Below are positions 4,338 through 62,404 of a stretch of DNA of 64,000 nucleotides, piece by piece. The notes below the pieces were generated by a model, which was not told the origin of the DNA, ran no database searches, and saw only the letters and a list, made by a program, of their open reading frames with translations. The stretch comes from a virus, in IMG/VR virus record IMGVR_UViG_3300050120_000213, positions 35,511 through 99,510 of that record; one strand, given 5' to 3'. A program made the position numbers and the translations under genes. How positions within the stretch are numbered: position 1 is the first letter of the stretch; each line of letters starts with the position of its first letter.

Positions 4338-4365
4338 AGAATAGCACTTATTGCTAGTTTGTCAA
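4338..4365 (-). promoter_or_regulatory. Sigma70-type promoter
   Basis: On the minus strand TTGACA (4360-4365), a 16-bp spacer ending TGC, and TATTCT (4338-4343). It drives the acidic-tailed gene; a dyad repeat lies 8 bp upstream. Confidence 0.75.
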
Positions 4366-48444: not shown

Positions 48445-49059
48445 TCACTTGGTAGTCAGTGCCCGTTCTATTGTCCAACCCCGGCGCAGTCGGTCGTAAA
48501 TCTGACCTCTGCGCAACCCTAGTTCATCTTCCCATTGCACTTGTGTCTGTGTCTTGTTGGCATAAGCGATTAGCTTATTTGAGCGCCTATTGTTAGCTTG
48601 TTCGACTTTGGTGGCCCAACGCCAATTTCCAGGCTCGTAGTTCCCGTCATTATTGGGGTAGCGGTCTAACGTCATGCCATCCGGTGGCAAGCCCACATCG
48701 GCAAAAAAGTCCTCAAACACCAACCAGCGGTCGCAAACCGTAATCCCACGCCCTCCATAACTGGGGTATGCCTTGCACTTCTTGTCATTACAGCGCTGCA
48801 ACATGCTTAGCCAGATATTATGAATCGGCGTGTGGGACAGGCCGTGACGCTTACTGGCTTGGGAAGCCCGTTCTTTTTGCAGGCAACCGCACGATTGTGT
48901 TTTGCCCAATCGGAGTAATTGAGCACGTACTAAAACCTGATTCCCACACTCACAATTGCACCAATAGTGCAGAACCTCTTTTTTAAGCTCGGTGCATTCA
49001 GTTGCAACGAGTCGCCCAAATACTTTCAGTGCTAAATCAATCCGGTTTACCGCAGTCAT
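48445..49059 (-). CDS. HNH-type homing endonuclease, 204 aa
   Basis: The protein has TQSCGCLQKERASQASKRHG, then PIHNIWLSMLQRCNDKKCKA, YPSYGGRGITVCDRW, and MTLDRYPNNDGNYEPGNWRW followed by ATKVEQANNRRSNK. This is the well-known phage HNH/AP2-linked family in which LDR-x-x-x-DGNYEPGN is the conserved core. The C-terminus (DELGLRRGQIYDRLRRGWTI) is a DNA-binding repeat. It lies right after terL and has its own promoter and GGGAGG ribosome site, as an inserted homing gene would. Confidence 0.85.
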   Translation of the reverse strand: MTAVNRIDLALKVFGRLVATECTELKKEVLHYWCNCECGNQVLVRAQLLRLGKTQSCGCLQKERASQASKRHGLSHTPIHNIWLSMLQRCNDKKCKAYPSYGGRGITVCDRWLVFEDFFADVGLPPDGMTLDRYPNNDGNYEPGNWRWATKVEQANNRRSNKLIAYANKTQTQVQWEDELGLRRGQIYDRLRRGWTIERALTTK

Positions 49060-49078
49060 TATGCCCTCCCAAAAGTGC

Positions 49079-49107
49079 ATCTTACCACTTTTGGCAGATT
49101 GAGTCAA
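49079..49107 (-). promoter_or_regulatory. Sigma70-type promoter
   Basis: TTGACT (49102-49107), 17-bp spacer, TAAGAT (49079-49084) on the minus strand, in the gap between terL and the homing endonuclease. Confidence 0.6.
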
Positions 49108-49135
49108 ACGTATTGAGTTTATGGTACTACCCGTG

Positions 49136-50470
49136 CTATGATAGTAAATCCTCACCAATACCCAATAAAACTGCTGGCCCATAAACGAAACAGTCTAACA
49201 AATCGTCACTGCGTTTGTAGGCGTCTTTATCACTAATAAAGAACTTACTGATTTGATCTAGCAAATGGTTTTTCTCATTGCCCTTGTAGTTCTTGGTGCG
49301 ATTAAAGGCCACTTCGTGAATTTTGATCAGTTCTTGGTGGTAATGACTACTGATGCCCAAGGCGCGGCCATCTTTACCTTTGTCGGTAATGTTGCCCGGG
49401 ATGCCCGCCGCTTGATAGCCCTTGACCAAAGATTGCTGAATCAGGATCGTGCCACTCATCTTGTCTTCGATAAATGCCCCCGCACTGCCATAGCGGGCTT
49501 GGCACCGTTTCGCCAACTCATTCAGATTCGCAAACACGGTGGGGAGCCAATCTATTAACAGATTGCCGGTGATCTGTAATATATCCCAGTCCAACAAGGT
49601 AATCGGTGCACCCAGCCCATACTTGTTGAAGGCCCAATACACCACAGCGGTGCCATCATTTTCCTGGCCGTCTTTTACAGCGGTATCAATAGTGGCACAG
49701 ACGTACTCGACGTGTTGGGGGTAGGCTACTGGTTTCTTATTCACCAGCATCTTTTCCACGTCAAAAAACGCATCGCCGCCCCAACTGACGAATTCAGCCA
49801 AGAACTCCTGTTGATAGACCAGGGGTGGCTTGGTGTCTTTAACCTTTTGAAATTCTAAGCGCCGCCGTATCAGGTAATCGACTTCGGGTTCTCCAGCACG
49901 ACGTAATGGAATCAACGGATTCTGATAGGTCGGGGCGTGGAACATCGTAAAGCCCTGTTTATTCCCGGGCTGGCACACCTGATAAAAGAAATTCTCATCA
50001 TTAACGCCATTGGGGGTGCTCATCACCAAAGCACTACCGCCAGTATCAAAGATGGTTGGGTAGATAGCTTTATCCCACTGGTCCATCATGGTGGCGTTCT
50101 TGGTGAAGGCCGCCTCATCAATCACCACCAGATCGTATTTTCTTGAGCGTCCCGCCTGTTCGTTCTCTAACGTCCAATAATCGATACGGGCGTTAGTAAC
50201 GAAGCGTTGCACCCATTCGCCCTTACTGGAAGATTTCTTAATCGGTAGCAGCAAGTTTTCCAGTTCGTTATACATTTCGGTCTGGATCTTGTAGTTAGGC
50301 ACGAATACACCCACGTTTTTGCCCCGGCATACCGCATCGCCAACAATGATCTTCGCCATGTCGGTCTTGCCCCAGCGTCGGCCACAGCACAACGCAAAGA
50401 AGCGCGTCCGAGCGCGCAACGCCATCTGCTGCCCGGGATGCAGCGTGGGTAACTTCACCTTCATCGACAT
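49136..50470 (-). CDS. terL: Terminase large subunit
   Basis: The 444-residue protein has the terminase ATPase: Walker A CGRRWGKT at about residues 29-36, Walker B LVVIDEAAF at about 112-120, and a coupling motif ALVMSTPNG. The nuclease domain has CATIDTAVKDGQENDGTAVV (first acidic site), AFIEDKMSG and later RSDDLLDCFVYG (further acidic sites). It pumps DNA into the head and cuts concatemers. The ATG overlaps the terS stop. Confidence 0.9.
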   Translation of the reverse strand: MSMKVKLPTLHPGQQMALRARTRFFALCCGRRWGKTDMAKIIVGDAVCRGKNVGVFVPNYKIQTEMYNELENLLLPIKKSSSKGEWVQRFVTNARIDYWTLENEQAGRSRKYDLVVIDEAAFTKNATMMDQWDKAIYPTIFDTGGSALVMSTPNGVNDENFFYQVCQPGNKQGFTMFHAPTYQNPLIPLRRAGEPEVDYLIRRRLEFQKVKDTKPPLVYQQEFLAEFVSWGGDAFFDVEKMLVNKKPVAYPQHVEYVCATIDTAVKDGQENDGTAVVYWAFNKYGLGAPITLLDWDILQITGNLLIDWLPTVFANLNELAKRCQARYGSAGAFIEDKMSGTILIQQSLVKGYQAAGIPGNITDKGKDGRALGISSHYHQELIKIHEVAFNRTKNYKGNEKNHLLDQISKFFISDKDAYKRSDDLLDCFVYGPAVLLGIGEDLLS

Positions 50471-51465
50471 TAGGCTAAATCTCCCACATTCCCCACCAAC
50501 CCACCGCTCACATCGCTTCCTGACCCACCCGTGACTTCTTCCGACCCACTTGCTTGTGCTAGCGACTGCGACGATAGCGGCTGACTAGTAGGTGACTGTC
50601 CCGGAACAAGGTACTGTTTCTGTTCGGCGTTATAGCGCCGTTGTTCTTCTAGGTTGCTTGCTTTAACTTCAGCACTCAAAGTATCTGGCAATGGCGTATC
50701 CGGTAATCCCCCCTCTATGACTACATGTACTGTTCCACTCTCAGCTACTGGATGTGCTTCATTTCCATAGGTATGTGGCAATATTTTAGACATTAGGAAT
50801 TTTCTTGTTTCTATCTGTAGTCGTGATCGTGCTGCGCCATCAATTACTTGTATCTCGACGCTGCCATCTGATTTGTGGATCGTATTAGCGATCATGCGCG
50901 GCTTATCAGAGAGTTCGATAATTTCTTCTGCCCATACTTCTGGGCGTAATTGCATAGCGAGGGTGTAGCGTTCTTTTAATGAAGGGTTTTCTTGTAACCA
51001 ACAAAAGAAGCGGCCCGCAAATGGCATATGAGGATCTCTACAGATGTGTCTTAGTGGCTCTCCATCTATGATTCTTTCTATGATGAAGTCAGCGACTTCT
51101 GGACAGTAATTCTGACTGCCAACGGCGCGGCCCGCAAATTTATCTCTTGAAATGATGTTTGCCACCACATATTTGCGTTCCCTGGGTCCGAGTGGCTCGC
51201 CGTACCGGTCTTCGATATATTCGATGATTTCTTGAGCGCTGATGCGGCCACGGGCAATGCCTTGTTCGATGGTTTCAGGGATGTGCTTAGCATCGAGCAG
51301 GGCTTGCAATTCTTCGTCTACGCGTTGTCTAGCATCCCAAAATGCTTCACGTTCTTTAGCTCTGATTTGTTCTTTCTTGGTTAGAGTTATAGATCGTGGC
51401 TTAGCCTTATCCCGATTGGTTTTATATTTTAATGTCTTGAGGGGTTTAAGGAATGTGACGGCCAT
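50470..51465 (-). CDS. terS: Terminase small subunit
   Basis: The 331-residue protein lies directly upstream of terL. It has a helix-turn-helix-rich core (VADFIIERIIDGEPLRHICR, WLQENPSLKERYTLAMQLRP, VWAEEIIELSDKPRMI) typical of the phage terminase small subunits that recognise the packaging site. The first 90 residues are an additional charged part and the C-terminus is low complexity. It is long for the family. The ATG lacks a clear ribosome site. Confidence 0.8.
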   Translation of the reverse strand: MAVTFLKPLKTLKYKTNRDKAKPRSITLTKKEQIRAKEREAFWDARQRVDEELQALLDAKHIPETIEQGIARGRISAQEIIEYIEDRYGEPLGPRERKYVVANIISRDKFAGRAVGSQNYCPEVADFIIERIIDGEPLRHICRDPHMPFAGRFFCWLQENPSLKERYTLAMQLRPEVWAEEIIELSDKPRMIANTIHKSDGSVEIQVIDGAARSRLQIETRKFLMSKILPHTYGNEAHPVAESGTVHVVIEGGLPDTPLPDTLSAEVKASNLEEQRRYNAEQKQYLVPGQSPTSQPLSSQSLAQASGSEEVTGGSGSDVSGGLVGNVGDLA

Positions 51466-53868: not shown

Positions 53869-54029
53869 TGTACTTCCTTCAAGCGGGCAATCAAATTGCG
53901 GCGTGCTTGATCAGCTTCCTGCTTAGCCCGAAGCCAGTCCCCCTGGTGTTCGCAGTTCTTCATATCCGACCTAGCGCGACATAGCGCATCTACAAATACC
54001 ATTACTGATTGGATATCGTCATCGCTCAT
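53865..54029 (-). CDS. Hypothetical helical protein, 54 aa
   Basis: MSDDDIQSVMVFVDALCRAR then SDMKNCEHQGDWLRAKQEAD: an all-helical charged protein. ATGA overlaps both sides. No function is recognised. Confidence 0.5.
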   Translation of the reverse strand: MSDDDIQSVMVFVDALCRARSDMKNCEHQGDWLRAKQEADQARRNLIARLKEVQ

Positions 54030-54346
54030 CCTAACCCCCGTATAAAGCTTTTATGGGCGTCCCAGTCACAGGTTTCAGGATCTAGGCCCGGGATGTGGGG
54101 CTTGGCCGCATTCTTAATGGTGTCCATCCCAGGCAAGGTAATCTGGGCCTTGTCTTCGGGGTAGGCATACTGGAGTTGGCTATAAGCCACTCTCCACTCA
54201 CCATTCGGGCCGCCACCGCGTACGCCGTCATCACGAATGATGAAAACACGTCTGCCAGCCGCGCTGAGATCTATCGATACGATAACCCCAGTCCACTCCA
54301 TGTCTGGTCTGGTTACGTGATCCCCCACCACAAATTGTTCGTTCAT
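54026..54346 (-). CDS. Hypothetical protein, 106 aa
   Basis: MNEQFVVGDHVTRPDMEWTG... has an SH3-like start (VGDHVTRPDMEWTGVIVSID) and a C-terminus ending HKSFIRGLG. TAGGAG precedes the chosen ATG. The tRNA-like gene lies just upstream. Confidence 0.55.
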   Translation of the reverse strand: MNEQFVVGDHVTRPDMEWTGVIVSIDLSAAGRRVFIIRDDGVRGGGPNGEWRVAYSQLQYAYPEDKAQITLPGMDTIKNAAKPHIPGLDPETCDWDAHKSFIRGLG

Positions 54347-54360
54347 TTCCACTCCTAGGG

Positions 54361-54433
54361 TGCGGGGAGTGGGACTCGAACCCACAAATCTTGGAAGCTA
54401 TCCAAGGCGTTTACCAATTTCACCATCCCCTGC
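54361..54433 (-). tRNA. tRNA-like gene, anticodon uncertain (AGC by geometry)
   Basis: The 73-nt gene has acceptor GCAGGGG/TCCCCGC (one mismatch, one wobble), a D arm with AATTGGTAAA as in Leu-type tRNAs, anticodon stem CTTGG/CCAAG with loop ATAGCTT, and T arm GTGGG-TTCGAGT-CCCAC. If T33 is the second loop base, the anticodon is AGC (Ala), but base 37 would then be T, which is unusual. CCA is not encoded (the next bases are CCC). It might be a decayed or atypical tRNA. Confidence 0.65.
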
Positions 54434-54478
54434 CACGATTACTCAACTTCAACCACTCAGTCACCTGCACGTATGCAA

Positions 54479-54494
54479 TGTTTCACGTGAAACA
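54479..54494. other. Perfect bacterial parS (ParB-binding) site
   Basis: TGTTTCACGTGAAACA is a perfect 16-bp palindrome identical to the conserved chromosomal parS sequence that ParB clamps load on in most bacteria. A 16-mer match by chance in 64 kb is about 1.5 in 100000. It lies 1 bp after the stop of the 54496 gene, the same slot favoured by the dyad repeats. No second copy and no ParB gene are seen in the window. Confidence 0.9.
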
Positions 54495-54495
54495 A

Positions 54496-54864
54496 CTACC
54501 TTTGTTTCAGCGGTAGCCCCGCCTCCGCCAACACATCACGCGCCAGCACCATCAAGGCGTAGATATGCGTTTCGCCAGGGTCTGCACTGGCAATTGATTG
54601 CAGTGCCGCGATCATCTTCGGCATCGCTACAATACGCCGCGCCAACTCCACGCCGGGAACATAAGGGGGATCGGTTTCTGTGTCATCTTCGAAATGAATT
54701 ACGACCTTGGCAATGTTGCCATGCCGATCTGTGGCATTAATCGTCTGCCAGTTGTCTTCGATATCGCCCAGTTCTAAATCATCCAACATGGACAACACTT
54801 GGGCACGATGGTGCTCTTTCCACTTTTTGTCTGAAGCTTCCGTCAATTCGCGGGCAGTACTCAT
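54496..54864 (-). CDS. Hypothetical protein, 122 aa
   Basis: MSTARELTEASDKKWKEHHR... is acidic in the middle (DLELGDIEDNWQTINATDRH) and helical at the end. The C-terminal AALQSIASADPG contains an imperfect dyad repeat. The chosen ATG gives the shortest sensible protein; 59 upstream in-frame codons overlap other genes. Confidence 0.55.
   Translation of the reverse strand: MSTARELTEASDKKWKEHHRAQVLSMLDDLELGDIEDNWQTINATDRHGNIAKVVIHFEDDTETDPPYVPGVELARRIVAMPKMIAALQSIASADPGETHIYALMVLARDVLAEAGLPLKQR
54588..54603 (-). repeat. Imperfect dyad repeat (13-bp core intact), intragenic
   Basis: TGGCAATTGATTGCAG keeps GCAATTGATTGCA and loses the outer bases; read as LQSIA in the 54496 gene. Confidence 0.65.
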
Positions 54865-54875
54865 TGCCGTGGTCC

Positions 54876-54989
54876 TTAATGTCTGTAGGTGGCGTAAAGC
54901 AGGCACCCAGCCAGGATACCGCCCAACAGCAGACCGATCAGACAAGCCTGCATGTACTCCTTCGGAGTGGGTTTTTGGGGGTGGTTCAT
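54876..54989 (-). CDS. Tiny membrane protein, 37 aa
   Basis: MNHPQKPTPKEYMQACLIGL then LLGGILAGCLLYATYRH: one membrane segment with a lipobox-like ILAGC. The ATG overlaps the upstream stop region. It is one of the small early membrane peptides. Confidence 0.5.
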   Translation of the reverse strand: MNHPQKPTPKEYMQACLIGLLLGGILAGCLLYATYRH

Positions 54990-55174
54990 TTGCATTCCCT
55001 CTCGCAATGGCAAACTTCCAAACCATCCACGCTGCCTTCAACTATGCGAACGGACAAGGTAGTTTCTTTGGCAAATTCCCTGCACAAGTACCCGAGAGCC
55101 GCTGCTGTGCTTTGCAGGGGCTCGGATACAGCGGGGCCGTCTTTAGCCATGGTGATGACAAAGTAGATCGACAT
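54986..55174 (-). CDS. Hypothetical protein, 62 aa
   Basis: MSIYFVITMAKDGPAVSEPL... followed by LGYLCREFAKETTLSVRIVE. The stereotyped ATGGAGTTCGCA leader precedes the chosen ATG at 55174. Confidence 0.5.
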   Translation of the reverse strand: MSIYFVITMAKDGPAVSEPLQSTAAALGYLCREFAKETTLSVRIVEGSVDGLEVCHCERECK

Positions 55175-55214
55175 TGCGAACTCCATTTCGTTAATGTTTT
55201 CGAGGTACTGAGTT

Positions 55215-55242
55215 AAGTATAATGCATTTTAGGCGTTAGTCA
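55215..55242 (-). promoter_or_regulatory. Sigma70-type promoter
   Basis: TTGACT (55237-55242), 16-bp spacer, TATACT (55215-55220) on the minus strand; dyad repeat 7 bp upstream. Confidence 0.7.
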
Positions 55243-55249
55243 AAGAGTT

Positions 55250-55264
55250 TTTGCAATCAATTGC
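55250..55264 (+). repeat. Dyad repeat copy 23 (CA centre), contains a stop codon
   Basis: TTGCAATCAATTGCA; on the coding strand TGC-AAT-TGA gives the last codons and stop of the 55257 gene. Confidence 0.95.
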
Positions 55265-55535
55265 AGGAATCAACCTGTTCTTCGCTGGGGTGACTACGTT
55301 GCATCGGGAACCACAGGGCTAGTCCAAACACAATATTCGCGGCGCACCACGCGTGTTCGGATAGCTGCAGCGAGCCGTTGAGGTCCAAGGCCATAATCAG
55401 CCCCGCCACACCCGCCACGACCAGGGCAGCGCCCTTGAGTATCTTGGACGAGATATAGATCTCGATGGTGTGATCGCTATTGGGCACCGGTACTACTTGT
55501 GTGGTGCGCCCCGCCAAACGTTGTTTCAATGACAT
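55257..55535 (-). CDS. Membrane protein, 92 aa
   Basis: MSLKQRLAGRTTQVVPVPNS... carries two membrane segments (ALVVAGVAGLIMALDL, AANIVFGLALWFPM) and a short polar tail. GGAG follows directly after a terminator T-run. No known family. Confidence 0.55.
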   Translation of the reverse strand: MSLKQRLAGRTTQVVPVPNSDHTIEIYISSKILKGAALVVAGVAGLIMALDLNGSLQLSEHAWCAANIVFGLALWFPMQRSHPSEEQVDSCN

Positions 55536-55545
55536 GTTCAACTCC

Positions 55546-55566
55546 AAAAAGCCGCCCGAAAGCGGC
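55546..55566 (-). terminator. Intrinsic terminator
   Basis: GCCGC-TTTCGG-GCGGC followed by TTTTT on the minus strand. The GGAG ribosome site of the next gene starts right after the T-run. Confidence 0.75.
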
Positions 55567-55569
55567 ACG

Positions 55570-55644
55570 TTAACGCTTATTAAATACCGGGCTGAAGACC
55601 GCCACGACGCCGATAATCAGAAATACTACGATTACGCCGTCCAT
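55570..55644 (-). CDS. Tiny membrane peptide, 24 aa
   Basis: MDGVIVVFLIIGVVAVFSPV then FNKR: a single membrane helix. TTTGGAG lies before the ATG. Confidence 0.5.
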   Translation of the reverse strand: MDGVIVVFLIIGVVAVFSPVFNKR

Positions 55645-55646
55645 GA

Positions 55647-55928
55647 TTAGTCTCCAAAAAGGGCTTTAATTACCCGGTCAGCAAAAGGCGCAACGCCAAA
55701 CACTTCGACGCCGTGAGCCGCGCCTTCGTAGTGGAGCACGTATTCCAACACTGCCCACACTACCACAAAGGCCAGGAACGTGACAACACGGTGTTCAGCC
55801 GGTGCCTTCACCAAGGCATGAACTACCCGGCGATGAATGCCTTGGTGGACAACTGCCACCGTGGTGTCGAACGGATCGACATCCAGCGGTACAACGCGCT
55901 TGCGGGTAAAAACGATTTTTATCGGCAT
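55647..55928 (-). CDS. Membrane-associated protein, 93 aa
   Basis: MPIKIVFTRKRVVPLDVDPF... contains one hydrophobic helix (VVTFLAFVVVWAVLEYVL) and ends DRVIKALFGD. The ATGGAGTGCGAA leader precedes the chosen ATG. Confidence 0.55.
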   Translation of the reverse strand: MPIKIVFTRKRVVPLDVDPFDTTVAVVHQGIHRRVVHALVKAPAEHRVVTFLAFVVVWAVLEYVLHYEGAAHGVEVFGVAPFADRVIKALFGD

Positions 55929-55979
55929 TTCGCACTCCATTGCGTTGGTGAAAATGAGGTTGGGTCAGGCAGTTGTTAG

Positions 55980-56007
55980 ACTATAGCACACTGCATAAAT
56001 TTGTCAA
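55980..56007 (-). promoter_or_regulatory. Sigma70-type promoter
   Basis: TTGACA (56002-56007), 16-bp spacer ending TGC, TATAGT (55980-55985) on the minus strand. Confidence 0.8.
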
Positions 56008-56100
56008 AGGACAGTATAAATAAATCGTAAATATTTCCAGTGAAACCCGCTCATTTTATCGCCCACGCTATTCTTCTTTCTTGTTGTTAGTGAAGTCCAG

Positions 56101-56129
56101 AGTGTAAAGGCCGTGTATAAATCAGTCAA
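56101..56129 (-). promoter_or_regulatory. Possible second promoter
   Basis: TTGACT (56124-56129), 17-bp spacer, TACACT (56101-56106) on the minus strand, in the 149-bp AT-rich non-coding stretch 56008-56156, where I see no gene. A bare TTGACA also lies at 56145-56150. Confidence 0.45.
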
Positions 56130-56156
56130 TCCCCAATTTGCTAATTTGTCAAAATA

Positions 56157-56429
56157 CTACGTCACGCGATCTTCATCAAGCATCGTGCGTAGAGCCCACA
56201 TACTAGCGTGGCCGGTGCAGTAGTACTTGCCCTCGATACAGTACTTAGCGTATTTCTTACACTGCCGGTCAGTGTTAATGGTGTCATTAGCATAGTCATG
56301 TTCGCGCTCGGCTTCACAGCGCGGTAAGCTGGCTATGCTGGGACAGAGTGCGGTGGCACGTTTGCTAATATCAGTCCAGTATGTAATAGGAGGCGTTCTT
56401 AGCCAGCAGGTCAGAAACGACCACATCAT
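56157..56429 (-). CDS. Small cysteine-rich (zinc) protein, about 90 aa
   Basis: The C-terminal half (LPRCEAEREHDYANDTINTD, QCKKYAKYCIEGKYYCTGHA) is a typical phage zinc-binding pattern of four cysteines and a histidine. The start is uncertain because no start codon lies after the end of the overlapping gene; ATG 56429 would overlap it by 59 bp. Confidence 0.45.
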   Translation of the reverse strand: MMWSFLTCWLRTPPITYWTDISKRATALCPSIASLPRCEAEREHDYANDTINTDRQCKKYAKYCIEGKYYCTGHASMWALRTMLDEDRVT

Positions 56430-56883
56430 TATCGACCAGCCACTTTTGCCAGTCGAAGCGTACCGGGCAACCGTGTTCGAATGGGTCTACGACAAAGCCG
56501 TGCATAATCTTCGCGTGTGCTTCGGCTGCCGAGATGCCGCTAACCCCCGAAAATATGCGGGCACGGTTGGGATCCCATACTAACTGGAAATTAGCCTCAA
56601 ACATCGCCAAGAAAATCCCCGACTCATCAAGTCTGAATACCGTGCGAATCGGTAGGTATTTTTCTAAATGGTACTTGAGGCCATCAGCAATCGCGGTGCT
56701 CTTGTAGAATTCTTCTTTTACGAAGTCAGGGGTAGGCATAGGCTCATGAAATACGGCGTAGCCGCAATATAGGCAACTAGGTTTCGCAGTGTCCGTATTC
56801 AACGGGTGGCTACACATCGGGCACTTAACTTTCGTAGGTAATACGGTTGTCATGAAAGGATTAAACACCATATTAAGCGCCAT
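56371..56883 (-). CDS. Zinc-ribbon protein, 170 aa
   Basis: The N-terminus has a zinc ribbon (VKCPMCSHPLNTDTAKPSCL, YCGYAVFH), followed by a domain with FRLDESGIFLAMFEANFQLV and WDPNRARIFSGVSG. I do not recognise the second domain. The ATG at 56883 follows the GNAT stop by 5 bp; two further ATGs are possible. Confidence 0.55.
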   Translation of the reverse strand: MALNMVFNPFMTTVLPTKVKCPMCSHPLNTDTAKPSCLYCGYAVFHEPMPTPDFVKEEFYKSTAIADGLKYHLEKYLPIRTVFRLDESGIFLAMFEANFQLVWDPNRARIFSGVSGISAAEAHAKIMHGFVVDPFEHGCPVRFDWQKWLVDNDVVVSDLLAKNASYYILD

Positions 56884-56888
56884 AGTGC

Positions 56889-57245
56889 TTAAAACACCGT
56901 GTAATAGCAAGGTGGGTTGAGGGGGTCAATCTGTGGCGTAGTGCAACTCCAACCTTGGCGCTCAAAATACTGAGAGAAATGAGTGGTGAGCACGTTTTCT
57001 ACATACAGGCCATTGAACATACGGATGTTGGCTTCTTCTGTTAGGGCTAACAGGAATTTTTTAAACACCCCCTGCCCTTGATGGTCTTCGCTGACTGTGA
57101 CATTAGCGATGTCGATAACGCACCGCACTTGCCCGCCCAGCATCCGATTACTCTTGCACAGGTACACCGACATATTGCGAAAGTAGAGCCACTGGTTGCG
57201 GTCTGGGCCTTCTAAAAACAAGCCAATCTTCGATTTGGTGCTCAT
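56889..57245 (-). CDS. GNAT-family acetyltransferase, 118 aa
   Basis: VIDIANVTVSEDHQGQGVFK followed by KFLLALTEEANIRMFNGLYV is the acetyl-CoA-binding core of GNAT enzymes (Q-G-x-G-x-F/A then an amphipathic helix). The substrate may be a protein or small molecule; phage GNATs can modify host proteins. The chosen ATG at 57245 overlaps the next gene by 4 bp. Confidence 0.65.
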   Translation of the reverse strand: MSTKSKIGLFLEGPDRNQWLYFRNMSVYLCKSNRMLGGQVRCVIDIANVTVSEDHQGQGVFKKFLLALTEEANIRMFNGLYVENVLTTHFSQYFERQGWSCTTPQIDPLNPPCYYTVF

Positions 57246-57559
57246 GTAATGATCCAGCAGACTTTCACAGGTGTAAAACCACCCCTTTCTAGCGAGGTAT
57301 CTCCCCACTGATAGAGCCACACCATCAAGCGATTAAAGTCGGTTTTATCTACATAAGGCGCTTTGGGCAGGTCCTCAAAATCTATGGCGAGTGTCAGCAT
57401 ACGGGCGTTGATATGCCCCGACCCGACGTCGGTAAACACTGGGATTGCTCTGATCTTGGTGGCGACCATCGACGCCAATGCCCGCAGTTGATCTTCGTCT
57501 TCTGCGTCGCACTGTTCGTAGTCGGGTGTCAAATCCAATTCACGTTGCCACTTGGTCAT
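57242..57559 (-). CDS. Hypothetical protein, 105 aa
   Basis: MTKWQRELDLTPDYEQCDAE... with INARMLTLAIDFEDLPKAPY. No family is recognised. The stereotyped ATGGAGTTCGGA leader precedes the chosen ATG. Confidence 0.55.
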   Translation of the reverse strand: MTKWQRELDLTPDYEQCDAEDEDQLRALASMVATKIRAIPVFTDVGSGHINARMLTLAIDFEDLPKAPYVDKTDFNRLMVWLYQWGDTSLERGGFTPVKVCWIIT

Positions 57560-58169: not shown

Positions 58170-58840
58170 GACGCGCTCCCAGTAGCCTGAGCAGCAGCGA
58201 CGATAGCGCTCAAGACTTCCTGCGCCTCGGTCCCGTGCGATACGCCGCGCTTCCCTTCGTCAAATGCCAATTCCCAGTAGCGGCCCAGCAAATCACTCAG
58301 CCCGCTCGGCGCTGCTTGCGGCTGGGCGGCGAGAGAATCTCGAAGTTCGATAGCGAAACTGACAATGCCGCTCCATGTAAAACGCTTGTAACCGTTTTGC
58401 GCATCTACCATGTGCTTCTTTGCCAGCGAAATTGCCAACGCTCCAATCGGCTCCGCCACCACTCCCCCAGCCTCACCGATAGGCGCCCACTTGCTTCCCG
58501 TACGGTCGATGCGATGCTGCGCTACTTCGGCGCTTGAATGCTCGTGGGGCGCGTCTTTACCGCAGATCGGGCAGGCGAACGTACCATCAGGGACTGGTTT
58601 TCCGCTTAGTTTCGCGAGCGCTGATTCCGCAAGAGAACGGCTAGCGAAAGAATCGCCCATGTCCGTGATGACGCTGTGCTGAGCGGACGTCCTGCGCACA
58701 ATCACAAAGACTGCCTTGCCATCCTTAAAACTGGTGCAGATTTGTAATTGCGAAGCTGGGTAAGTTGTCTGCTCCGGCAATTCTGGCGCAGCCTCACCGC
58801 TATGGGGCGCGGGGGCGGATTCTTTATCTAGATCGCGCAT
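58166..58840 (-). CDS. Hypothetical protein with CxxC site, 224 aa
   Basis: MRDLDKESAPAPHSGEAAPE... is a multi-part protein with TFACPICGKDAPHEHSSAEV in the middle (a possible zinc site). The N-terminus is Pro/Ala/Glu-rich. It overlaps the PP-loop gene. The opening style is common in cargo genes of beta-proteobacterial phages; that impression is from memory and untested. Confidence 0.5.
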   Translation of the reverse strand: MRDLDKESAPAPHSGEAAPELPEQTTYPASQLQICTSFKDGKAVFVIVRRTSAQHSVITDMGDSFASRSLAESALAKLSGKPVPDGTFACPICGKDAPHEHSSAEVAQHRIDRTGSKWAPIGEAGGVVAEPIGALAISLAKKHMVDAQNGYKRFTWSGIVSFAIELRDSLAAQPQAAPSGLSDLLGRYWELAFDEGKRGVSHGTEAQEVLSAIVAAAQATGSAS

Positions 58841-59571
58841 ATGAGGCATCCTTGCTGTTCGTTTCGGGCTTTTCCGCCCTTGGATGTGAATATCGGCTTC
58901 CCGATTTGTTCCGCGACGATCTGGATCGTTTTGTATTGCTTGCGGCCGAAGTCGTCCAATTGGAACGCCTTCTCTTTGTGCTTATCGCCAGCCGCTAGGC
59001 ACGGGAAACAACCGACGCGACCGAACCACTGATAAAGGAGGTTTTCGCGCCCGTTAAGCAAACTGAAGACTTCGGCTTCGGACCAGTCCAAAACTGGAAG
59101 CCTAAATCGGACACCCATGCAGCCAAGGTATTTTGGGTACTTCGATGGAATGACCTCGTGGGGCTCGTACAGTGTCGTGTCAATCTTTCCGGCGTAGCGC
59201 TTCTCACGCTCCGGACTCTCAGCGGATCGCATCCCGTACCAGACTTCAAATCCACCTTGTTGCTCGGCAAGCGCTTTGCAGTAAATGCGTGTTTCCCTGA
59301 TCTTCAATTCGTCGGTGCAGTGGCGAGCGCCGCCGCCAGGGAACCGCCCGTACTTGATACTTTTCTCAAGCACCGAACCACCGCTTACCCGGTCGATTTG
59401 AATACCGTAATAGCCGTGCATCCATTCGATGTGGGCATAAGTGATTGGATGTTCAAATTGGGTATCGCAGAACAGTCCGCGAATATCAGATGGTGAATGC
59501 TCCAGTAATGCCAGTTCAAGGCACGCTTGCGAATCCTTGCCGCCGCTGATCGGGACGAGAATCTTAACCAT
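58828..59571 (-). CDS. PP-loop PAPS reductase-like protein, 247 aa
   Basis: The N-terminus MVKILVPISGGKDSQACLEL holds the SGGKDS PP-loop of adenine-nucleotide alpha-hydrolases, followed by LFCDTQFEHPITYAHIEWMH. Later motifs include RFPGGGARHCTDELKIR, VWYGMRSAESPEREKRYAGK, LGCMGVRFRLPVLDWSEAEV and the C-terminal cysteines (GCFPCLA, QQGCLICAI), which suggest an iron-sulphur or zinc site. Members include PAPS reductase and the DNA phosphorothioation enzyme DndC. AAGGGG before ATG 59571 supports the start. Confidence 0.7.
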   Translation of the reverse strand: MVKILVPISGGKDSQACLELALLEHSPSDIRGLFCDTQFEHPITYAHIEWMHGYYGIQIDRVSGGSVLEKSIKYGRFPGGGARHCTDELKIRETRIYCKALAEQQGGFEVWYGMRSAESPEREKRYAGKIDTTLYEPHEVIPSKYPKYLGCMGVRFRLPVLDWSEAEVFSLLNGRENLLYQWFGRVGCFPCLAAGDKHKEKAFQLDDFGRKQYKTIQIVAEQIGKPIFTSKGGKARNEQQGCLICAI

Positions 59572-60109
59572 GCGCATCCCCTTGCGGCTCGATGCTCGCA
59601 TCTACCGGCGCAGCGACGGGCGCGGCAGGGGCGGCGCAAGCTTTGCGAGCATCAGCGAGCGCTTTGGGTTCTTCATAGGCGGTAAATCCGCCCCGATCAT
59701 CCGCCCACTTCCGGCCGCATCCATCGCAAATGGTCCAGATTGCGCCGCCACGGTGCGTTTCCTCGTGTCGGCATTCGTTACGGTCGACATATTCGATCAG
59801 ATTGCCGAGTGCCGCACGGAGGTCAGCCCCCTCGCTCTTGTGGGCGAGAGCTGCTCCGCTGATTTTTGCCAGCGTGTGGCGCGCCCGGTTTTGTGCCCAC
59901 AAGAAGAATTCATGGTATGGGTTTGTAGCCACAAAATTCTTGATATCGGCGCTGGCGATGTTCTGTAGTTCGGCAATAACAAAATCAGAAGGCTCGGTCC
60001 CGGCAAGAGCCGCAGCTATGACTTTTCGGGCACACGCCACGAAGTCGCTGGTGCTATTGCTGCCCGGATAAAACCTTACGATTTCCGCGTCGCTAAGTTG
60101 TTTGTTCAT
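59564..60109 (-). CDS. Hypothetical protein, 181 aa
   Basis: The protein begins MNKQLSDAEIVRFYPGSNST, has a helical middle (LRAALGNLIEYVDRNECRHE) with a likely zinc site (HRGGAIWTICDGCGRKWADD), and a low-complexity Ala/Pro end. AAAGGA precedes the ATG. Confidence 0.55.
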   Translation of the reverse strand: MNKQLSDAEIVRFYPGSNSTSDFVACARKVIAAALAGTEPSDFVIAELQNIASADIKNFVATNPYHEFFLWAQNRARHTLAKISGAALAHKSEGADLRAALGNLIEYVDRNECRHEETHRGGAIWTICDGCGRKWADDRGGFTAYEEPKALADARKACAAPAAPVAAPVDASIEPQGDAHG

Positions 60110-61065: not shown

Positions 61066-61521
61066 TTACATGTACACCCCAGCCAACCCCCGTTCGATCA
61101 GATCATCAATAATGACGATGCCTTCGGGGGTAGCCATGACAGTGATTGGCCGCTGGTTTCCTAACGCGGGGATCTCACTCTGTAACCAGTGCGTTGCAGC
61201 CCCCCGGTCACCGCACAAACCCATCAACTTTAGCGCCACAGGTACCACTTTTTCGAGGTGCTCGGTGTCAGCCAGCGGCATAACCGCCTGCAAAAACCCA
61301 GCCCACCAGCTAAAATCAGAGCGACCATCGGGACGGCTCAGAGGAATGCGCAGTGCCCAGTACCCGTCTGTACGCTCCACCCACTCTCCGAAATTGAGGC
61401 TATTCCCCTCGGTGTCTTCGACTTCTACAAAACGAAATTCAGGGGGGCGAGTGCCGCTTGCGTGCCTAGCAAACACAATATCCACTTGAGCGGCGGGCTG
61501 ACTGCCTTCTTCGGTGTTCAT
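61066..61521 (-). CDS. Hypothetical protein, 151 aa
   Basis: MNTEEGSQPAAQVDIVFARH... with YWALRIPLSRPDGRSDFSWW and KVVPVALKLMGLCGDRGAAT. No family is recognised. The ATG overlaps the stop of the membrane protein gene; 112 upstream in-frame codons belong to other genes. Confidence 0.5.
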   Translation of the reverse strand: MNTEEGSQPAAQVDIVFARHASGTRPPEFRFVEVEDTEGNSLNFGEWVERTDGYWALRIPLSRPDGRSDFSWWAGFLQAVMPLADTEHLEKVVPVALKLMGLCGDRGAATHWLQSEIPALGNQRPITVMATPEGIVIIDDLIERGLAGVYM

Positions 61522-61664
61522 AGCGCCCCGAGCAGGAAGCAAAACACACAAAATACCCACAAAGCCCACACGCTGTGATCTCCGTGAGTGGTGAGGTACA
61601 CCGCCATCATGGCAAGGCTCAGCCCAAACGCGAGGATAAATCCACGTCGAATTAGTGCGATCAT
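61518..61664 (-). CDS. Small membrane protein, 48 aa
   Basis: MIALIRRGFILAFGLSLAMM and VWALWVFCVFCFLLGAL are two membrane segments separated by a short polar loop. ATG overlaps the upstream stop (ATGA). Confidence 0.5.
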   Translation of the reverse strand: MIALIRRGFILAFGLSLAMMAVYLTTHGDHSVWALWVFCVFCFLLGAL

Positions 61665-61804
61665 AACAATGGGTTCCTTTTGGGGGGGCGGTCGTACGTG
61701 GGCAGGGAGTGACGGCCCCACAACTTGGGCAGGACATACCCAATCGACACCAGGGCAATAAGACATACCCACGCCGCAACCCACAGCATTGTGTTAATAG
61801 ACAT
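61661..61804 (-). CDS. Small membrane protein, 47 aa
   Basis: MSINTMLWVAAWVCLIALVS then IGYVLPKLWGRHSLPTYDRP: one membrane segment with a basic C-terminal tail. It overlaps the next gene by 4 bp. Confidence 0.5.
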   Translation of the reverse strand: MSINTMLWVAAWVCLIALVSIGYVLPKLWGRHSLPTYDRPPKRNPLL

Positions 61805-61813
61805 GATTTAACC

Positions 61814-62404
61814 TTAGCAACTGCAAGAAAAGAAATTGCCTTTGTCAGTCGGATCAACGTGGTGATCCGTGATCAGCTCATAGTGATCCCAAAACTCCAC
61901 TGGGACACTCATGCTTTCGAACTTACCACCCTCACTCCAGTAATCCCCGTACTCAACGTACGACCTAGCTCGGTCCAACAATTCGCTATAACCCACCTCG
62001 ATTTCATCGGCGTAATTCTGCATCCAGGCAATAGCCTTGCTGACTTCATCCGAGGGTGGTGCTACGGCAGCGACTACAGTTGGGCCTTCCATATCCTTAA
62101 ACTTCGGGTGGGTCCAGACATGGCGCAAGCTCGTGATTTGACGAGGATACACCACTAGCCAAAAATGTTCACCTTTCTGGATGAACTCATTCAGAAACGG
62201 ATCAACAATTCCTACCGGATCATCGCAAGCCCCAACCCCATTATCGTTGGTCACAAAGCCCACATGCTGGCCGGGGTGCAGCGTTTCTACTGCGTAGACC
62301 GGTTCCACCGCTAAATGGATCGCATCACGCCCAGCGCCTTCACCAAGGATGGTGCCCAGGGTTTCGAGTGCGTCGGTTGCCACCGTGTGTTTTGCCCCAC
62401 TCAT
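61814..62404 (-). CDS. Hypothetical protein, 196 aa
   Basis: MSGAKHTVATDALETLGTIL... has GQHVGFVTNDNGVGACDDPV and, further on, FWLVVYPRQITSLRHVWTHP, and ends FFSCSC. The VTNDNGVGACDDPVG segment recalls phage proteins with a calcium- or ligand-binding loop, but I cannot name the family. It overlaps the upstream gene by 4 bp. Confidence 0.5.
   Translation of the reverse strand: MSGAKHTVATDALETLGTILGEGAGRDAIHLAVEPVYAVETLHPGQHVGFVTNDNGVGACDDPVGIVDPFLNEFIQKGEHFWLVVYPRQITSLRHVWTHPKFKDMEGPTVVAAVAPPSDEVSKAIAWMQNYADEIEVGYSELLDRARSYVEYGDYWSEGGKFESMSVPVEFWDHYELITDHHVDPTDKGNFFSCSC

Follow-up and report, generated by a model that had tools for sequence, protein, structure and literature searches.

The parS site and its surroundings

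The window analysed in this work is a 64-kb stretch of a 99,510-bp viral record (G000), and at positions 54479–54494 it carries TGTTTCACGTGAAACA, a perfect copy of the canonical chromosomal parS, with 16 of 16 positions identical to the 16-bp palindrome that constitutes parS on bacterial chromosomes and marks the chromosome family, some variants of which are tolerated by ParB (PMC5450999). This element, which as a palindrome is assigned to neither strand, is the longest perfect palindrome of the window, its only match at up to three mismatches and, as G000:89989-90004, the only match at up to two mismatches in the whole record. The number of such 16-mers expected per 64 kb is 1.5e-5 under a uniform model and 2.3e-5 under a first-order Markov model, in agreement with the figure of about 1.5e-5 given by an earlier sequence-only reading of this DNA, whose description of an exact, intergenic site next to a stop codon and a tRNA gene was likewise borne out.

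The site is located 1 bp past the stop codon (54496–54498, minus strand) of an ORFan gene (54496–54864, minus strand; longest open frame 54496–55041), and 45 bp from a minus-strand tRNA gene (54359–54433) lying on its downstream side, which ARAGORN calls as tRNA-Ala with anticodon agc and whose neighbours by blastn are phage tRNA-Leu and tRNA-Gln genes. The ORFan displayed no match in Pfam, PHROG or NCBIfam, and no relatives were found by peptide scans of cultured phages and IMG/VR; a weak relative (33%) is encoded by the related record G001. Further downstream on the transcribed strand are the minus-strand genes of the Sf6-type terminase small subunit (terS, 50470–51465) and the terminase large subunit (terL, 49136–50470), with starts 3.0 and 4.0 kb from parS, respectively. 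When compared by megablast, the parS region had no match among cultured phages.

The record encodes a tail sheath, baseplate, portal, major capsid protein and terminases, together with a family A DNA polymerase, primase, helicase and UvsX-like recombinase, and thus corresponds to a tailed phage of the myovirus type. No phage integrase (PF00589) was matched across the 99.5-kb record; given that the record may be incomplete, this and the other gene absences reported here are provisional. Given the lack of an integrase match and a genome with the look of a virulent myophage, segregation during a dormant state, one of the uses first proposed for the site, finds little support.

Other genes of the window include an HNH endonuclease directly behind terL (48448–49182), with similar HNH proteins repeated in the record; a PAPS reductase family protein (58831–59601) within the same minus-strand gene cluster; and a protein (61069–61857) whose C-terminal domain is of the Xre/MbcA/ParS antitoxin kind (PF09722), a name in which "ParS" bears no relation to the centromere parS.

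Partition genes in the record

A search of the whole record returned no match to a ParA-type ATPase (PF13614) and no ParB above the cut-off; the phage site is also devoid of an oriC context. The sequence-only reading had seen no parB gene, which holds for the 64-kb window, where no ParB_N gene occurs, and has to be qualified for the genome, in which a single ParB_N-type protein is encoded at about G000:15847-16689, outside the window and 73 kb from parS. This protein, rather than a host ParB, might be the cognate reader of the site, as it has a ParB_N fold and its weak alignment to TIGR00180 extends beyond the N domain. Against this, its TIGR00180 score is 34 versus a cut-off of 58.45, Pfam detected no HTH_ParB domain, and it reads GGHHRW where chromosomal ParB has GERRWR; its relatives in Stenotrophomonas phages, at 50% identity, bear annotations of ParB-like nuclease or of partition protein, and a 77%-identical orthologue is retained by G002 (80 kb), a record with no parS. 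No ParB of the phage-plasmid type, with a reading HTH, was therefore recognised, this below-cut-off protein being the sole candidate; it is not an obvious partner of parS, and we rejected it as the cognate protein, a role that we regard as highly improbable.

Relatives of the phage

Relatives of this phage were collected through its TerL (about 45–74% identity), those in viral contigs being recovered with an alignment after a single-protein scan gave none, and through its major capsid protein (up to 89% identity). The cultured TerL relatives infect Yersinia, Klebsiella, Pantoea, Actinobacillus and Shewanella, and capsid-protein relatives in bacterial genomes were found in Caballeronia, Paraburkholderia and Martelella (Burkholderiales and others) as well as in metagenome bins. 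The palindrome was absent at up to three mismatches from all 10 related records, and at up to two mismatches from 966 kb of capsid-protein relatives. Even G001, with 89% capsid identity, which keeps syntenic orthologues of the genes at 54026–57320 and has a tRNA cluster, lacks parS.

Conservation among relatives, which had been suggested as a check, was thus not observed. At the nucleotide level the flanks have diverged too far to be compared properly column by column, and the adjoining gene has no close relative. Conservation therefore lends the window site no support, and since the site is missing from every relative examined there is no sign of selection in this lineage. The window parS is a recent or private acquisition.

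Sites resembling parS at one or two mismatches do occur in seven TerL relatives (L136, L141, L143, L147, L154, L155 and L159), and were rejected as parS because, despite apparent positional conservation, they lie inside coding genes (..FHVKQLPCGVC.. in L154, L155 and L159). In the latter three, the one-mismatch form TGTTTCATGTGAAACA (L154:3008, L155:8952, L159:3116) falls within an HNH-like gene and encodes LFHVKQLPCGVC (..LFHVKQLP..). The plus strand of the window after parS likewise reads FHVKQLP, probably by coincidence.

Orphan parS sites in viral contigs

A scan of the viral collection yielded the exact parS 16-mer in at least 120 viral stretches, whereas two control palindromes, parS read backwards and a palindrome of identical dinucleotide content, occurred once each, an enrichment of at least 120-fold; few of the exact viral matches should therefore be due to chance. 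Among the 120 matches listed, the loci fall into about 90 unrelated groups, a ParB-type motif was seen in the available DNA of only one locus, and 44.5% of the sites lie in an open reading frame of at least 100 aa, versus 83% for random 16-mers from the same loci. Where TerL was recognisable among these listed matches, parS lay 0–5 kb upstream of terL in 29 of 35, with 11.6 expected under random placement. Furthermore, none of 48 larger virus records (parS-bearing records and marine TerL relatives) encodes a TIGR00180 ParB above the cut-off. Orphan parS sites in phages are, as a class, real, and the class-level evidence for selection on them is strong.

Five exact parS copies are found in about 1.4 kb upstream of distantly related terL genes in L017 and L044, forming a centromere-like cluster in a phage.

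Conservation upstream of terL in a marine phage group

An unbiased conservation test was carried out on a marine group (L284–L362) that had stood out among the parS loci; its members were fetched by their TerL protein alone and not by parS, and the test covered the 73 loci in which 200 bp or more precede terL. Exact parS was present within 200 bp upstream of terL in 49 of the 73 loci, and 57 carry it at up to two mismatches (2 at one mismatch and 6 at two), leaving 16 loci with no such upstream site; no unrelated control palindrome was matched there, either exactly or at one mismatch. The site stands tens of bp before the terL start. Most of the mismatched sites are TGTTCCACGTGGAACA, in which positions 5 and 12 are changed symmetrically; this form is the usual one in Pseudomonas and is accepted by the ParB of Burkholderia (PMC5450999). 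The exact parS is often paired with a second, TGTTCCACGTGGAACA site, several members carrying the two side by side.

Across 25 non-redundant marine sequences with distinct flanks, the site was 98% conserved against 50% for the flanks, the former figure being inflated because rows were picked at up to two mismatches. This choice does not dictate which positions vary, and within the site changes were confined to positions 5 and 12. Such a pattern is that expected of an element read by ParB and kept under selection, and the orphan parS of this marine phage group is clearly conserved. Among cultured relatives, Pelagibacter phage HTVC027P harbors a one-mismatch parS (CGTTTCACGTGAAACA; MN698241:16412-16427) in an intergenic position 631 bp from terS, and no site at up to two mismatches was found in HTVC023P or in the other cultured or complete relatives searched.

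Interpretation of the window site

ParB reads parS and binds CTP, becoming a closed clamp that slides over kilobases of DNA, and it loads SMC. We consider it somewhat better than even (a probability of about 0.56) that the window 16-mer is a genuine parS used by this phage, which has no parA or canonical parB of its own, for loading the ParB of its host. Judging from the identity of the sites, dimers of host ParB would bind the palindrome and close into CTP-dependent clamps, which would then slide over several kilobases of phage DNA in the vicinity of the tRNA and terminase genes; in this manner, the phage genome would gain a host partition complex, possibly with ParA or SMC contacts. The likeliest benefit would be that the packaging-gene end of the phage DNA is organised or positioned; local damping of transcription in the terminase region would come second, and titration of ParB is a further alternative.

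The recruitment of host ParB put forward by the sequence-only reading thus stands in part: the site is not chance-like, no ParA or above-cut-off ParB accompanies it, and orphan sites are enriched as a class and conserved elsewhere, whereas in the phage's own relatives it is not conserved. Taken alone, the window locus is a striking exact match with no conservation; the class enrichment was established in other phages and is no evidence on the window locus as such. The single copy and the absence from relatives also weigh against the preferred reading, as does the lack of ParABS in many enterobacteria, a group infected by cultured relatives. In its favour, capsid-protein relatives occur in Burkholderiales and other genomes, and Burkholderia chromosome 1 uses exactly this parS (PMC5450999).

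If the match to parS were a coincidence, the 16-bp palindrome would have no function in this phage even if host ParB could bind it, and both the absence from all relatives examined and the single copy are what such an origin would leave; moreover, a scan of this kind screens many genomes and many known motifs, and near matches do occur in coding DNA, as in L154, L155 and L159. With about 2e-5 sites expected per window, an intergenic position, and one occurrence of each matched control palindrome against at least 120 of parS in the viral collection, we judge coincidence unlikely. An element of another kind sharing the parS sequence, such as an operator read by a regulator of phage or host origin, or a hairpin or terminator formed in RNA ahead of the tRNA, would suit a perfect palindrome, which is typical of operators, in a phage that has a second, dispersed palindromic motif. 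The exact identity to parS and the single copy argue otherwise, and the hairpin or terminator version was rejected, as the RNA fold is not better than that of shuffles (z 0.57), there is no T tract and no terminator was called at the site; these possibilities are, overall, decidedly improbable.

The site might also act through ParB in a manner other than genome organisation, either as a decoy that titrates the protein or as a ParB-dependent road-block timing expression of the tRNA and terminase genes. The marine sites stand before terL as a regulatory element would, and additional parS sites carried by plasmids delay the growth of Burkholderia cenocepacia (PMC5450999). One site can titrate little protein unless replication raises its copy number, and the window site lies 3–4 kb away from the starts of the terminase genes, without a convincing promoter beside it, which makes both options quite unlikely for this phage.

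The retention by selection of an orphan parS near a packaging gene in unrelated phages suggests that phages may borrow the segregation machinery of their hosts. Extending the genuine-parS reading, it is conceivable, although we would put it short of even odds, that several unrelated phage groups carry an orphan parS upstream of the terminase genes so that the host ParB clamp organises their DNA for concatemer resolution, packaging or other late steps; the window phage would then represent an independent acquisition.

Comparison with known systems

The window site is identical to the palindrome of the chromosomal ParABS system, read by the Spo0J/ParB family (PMC5450999), and differs from that system in being a single copy on a phage, with no parA, no above-cut-off ParB and no oriC context. 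The closest precedent that we found is the island SGI1, whose parS-like sites have been experimentally shown to exploit the parABS system of IncC plasmids (PMC10954446). Both SGI1 and the window phage are mobile elements bearing a parS or parS-like site and no parAB of their own; conservation of the site among relatives was seen in the unrelated marine group and not in the relatives of this phage. They differ in that SGI1 is an integrative mobilizable island that uses a plasmid partition system, whereas the window belongs to a phage with a chromosome-type parS known from sequence alone.

The phage-plasmids P1 and N15 have genes for a ParA and a ParB of their own, together with plasmid-type sites. 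Cyanophage Mic1 has been proposed as a further phage-plasmid with its own ParABS (PMC7156551). All three resemble the window phage in having a centromere-type site in a phage genome; in contrast to them, G000 has no ParA, no above-cut-off ParB and no integrase. In an engineered lambda-parS reporter, parS on phage DNA suffices for visible ParB foci during infection (PMC13190303), the reporter being artificial and its ParB supplied. We found no description of a natural host-type parS in phages among the papers searched, and one may exist elsewhere.

If conserved orphan parS sites are used as proposed, host ParB, a CTP-switch clamp, would be a host factor of virulent phages, occupancy of phage genomes by ParB and SMC would be predicted, and parS-like sites far from oriC could be accounted for. 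Chromosome segregation proteins are not generally regarded as phage host factors. The idea is testable in cultured phages, a pelagiphage deposited in GenBank having a near-perfect site.

Other dispersed motifs in the genome

A 14-bp near-palindrome dispersed through the genome, TGCAATYRATTGCA (with CA or TG at its centre), is present in 26 exact copies in the window, with 0.07 expected, and in 40 copies in the 99.5-kb record, or about one per 2.4 kb, mostly in intergenic positions. It is similar to the 17-bp palindromes dispersed in the genomes of Cluster O mycobacteriophages (PMC4351075), and in relatives it has drifted to CGCAATYRATTGCG, as if tracking a phage DNA-binding protein. The window also harbors strong sigma70-like promoters that form a family (TTTGACAAAT..TGCTATAGT) on its minus strand, at 4338, 39656, 42929, 45808, 51916, 55980, 57592 and 62802; in several of them a TGCAATYRATTGCA site immediately precedes the -35 box.
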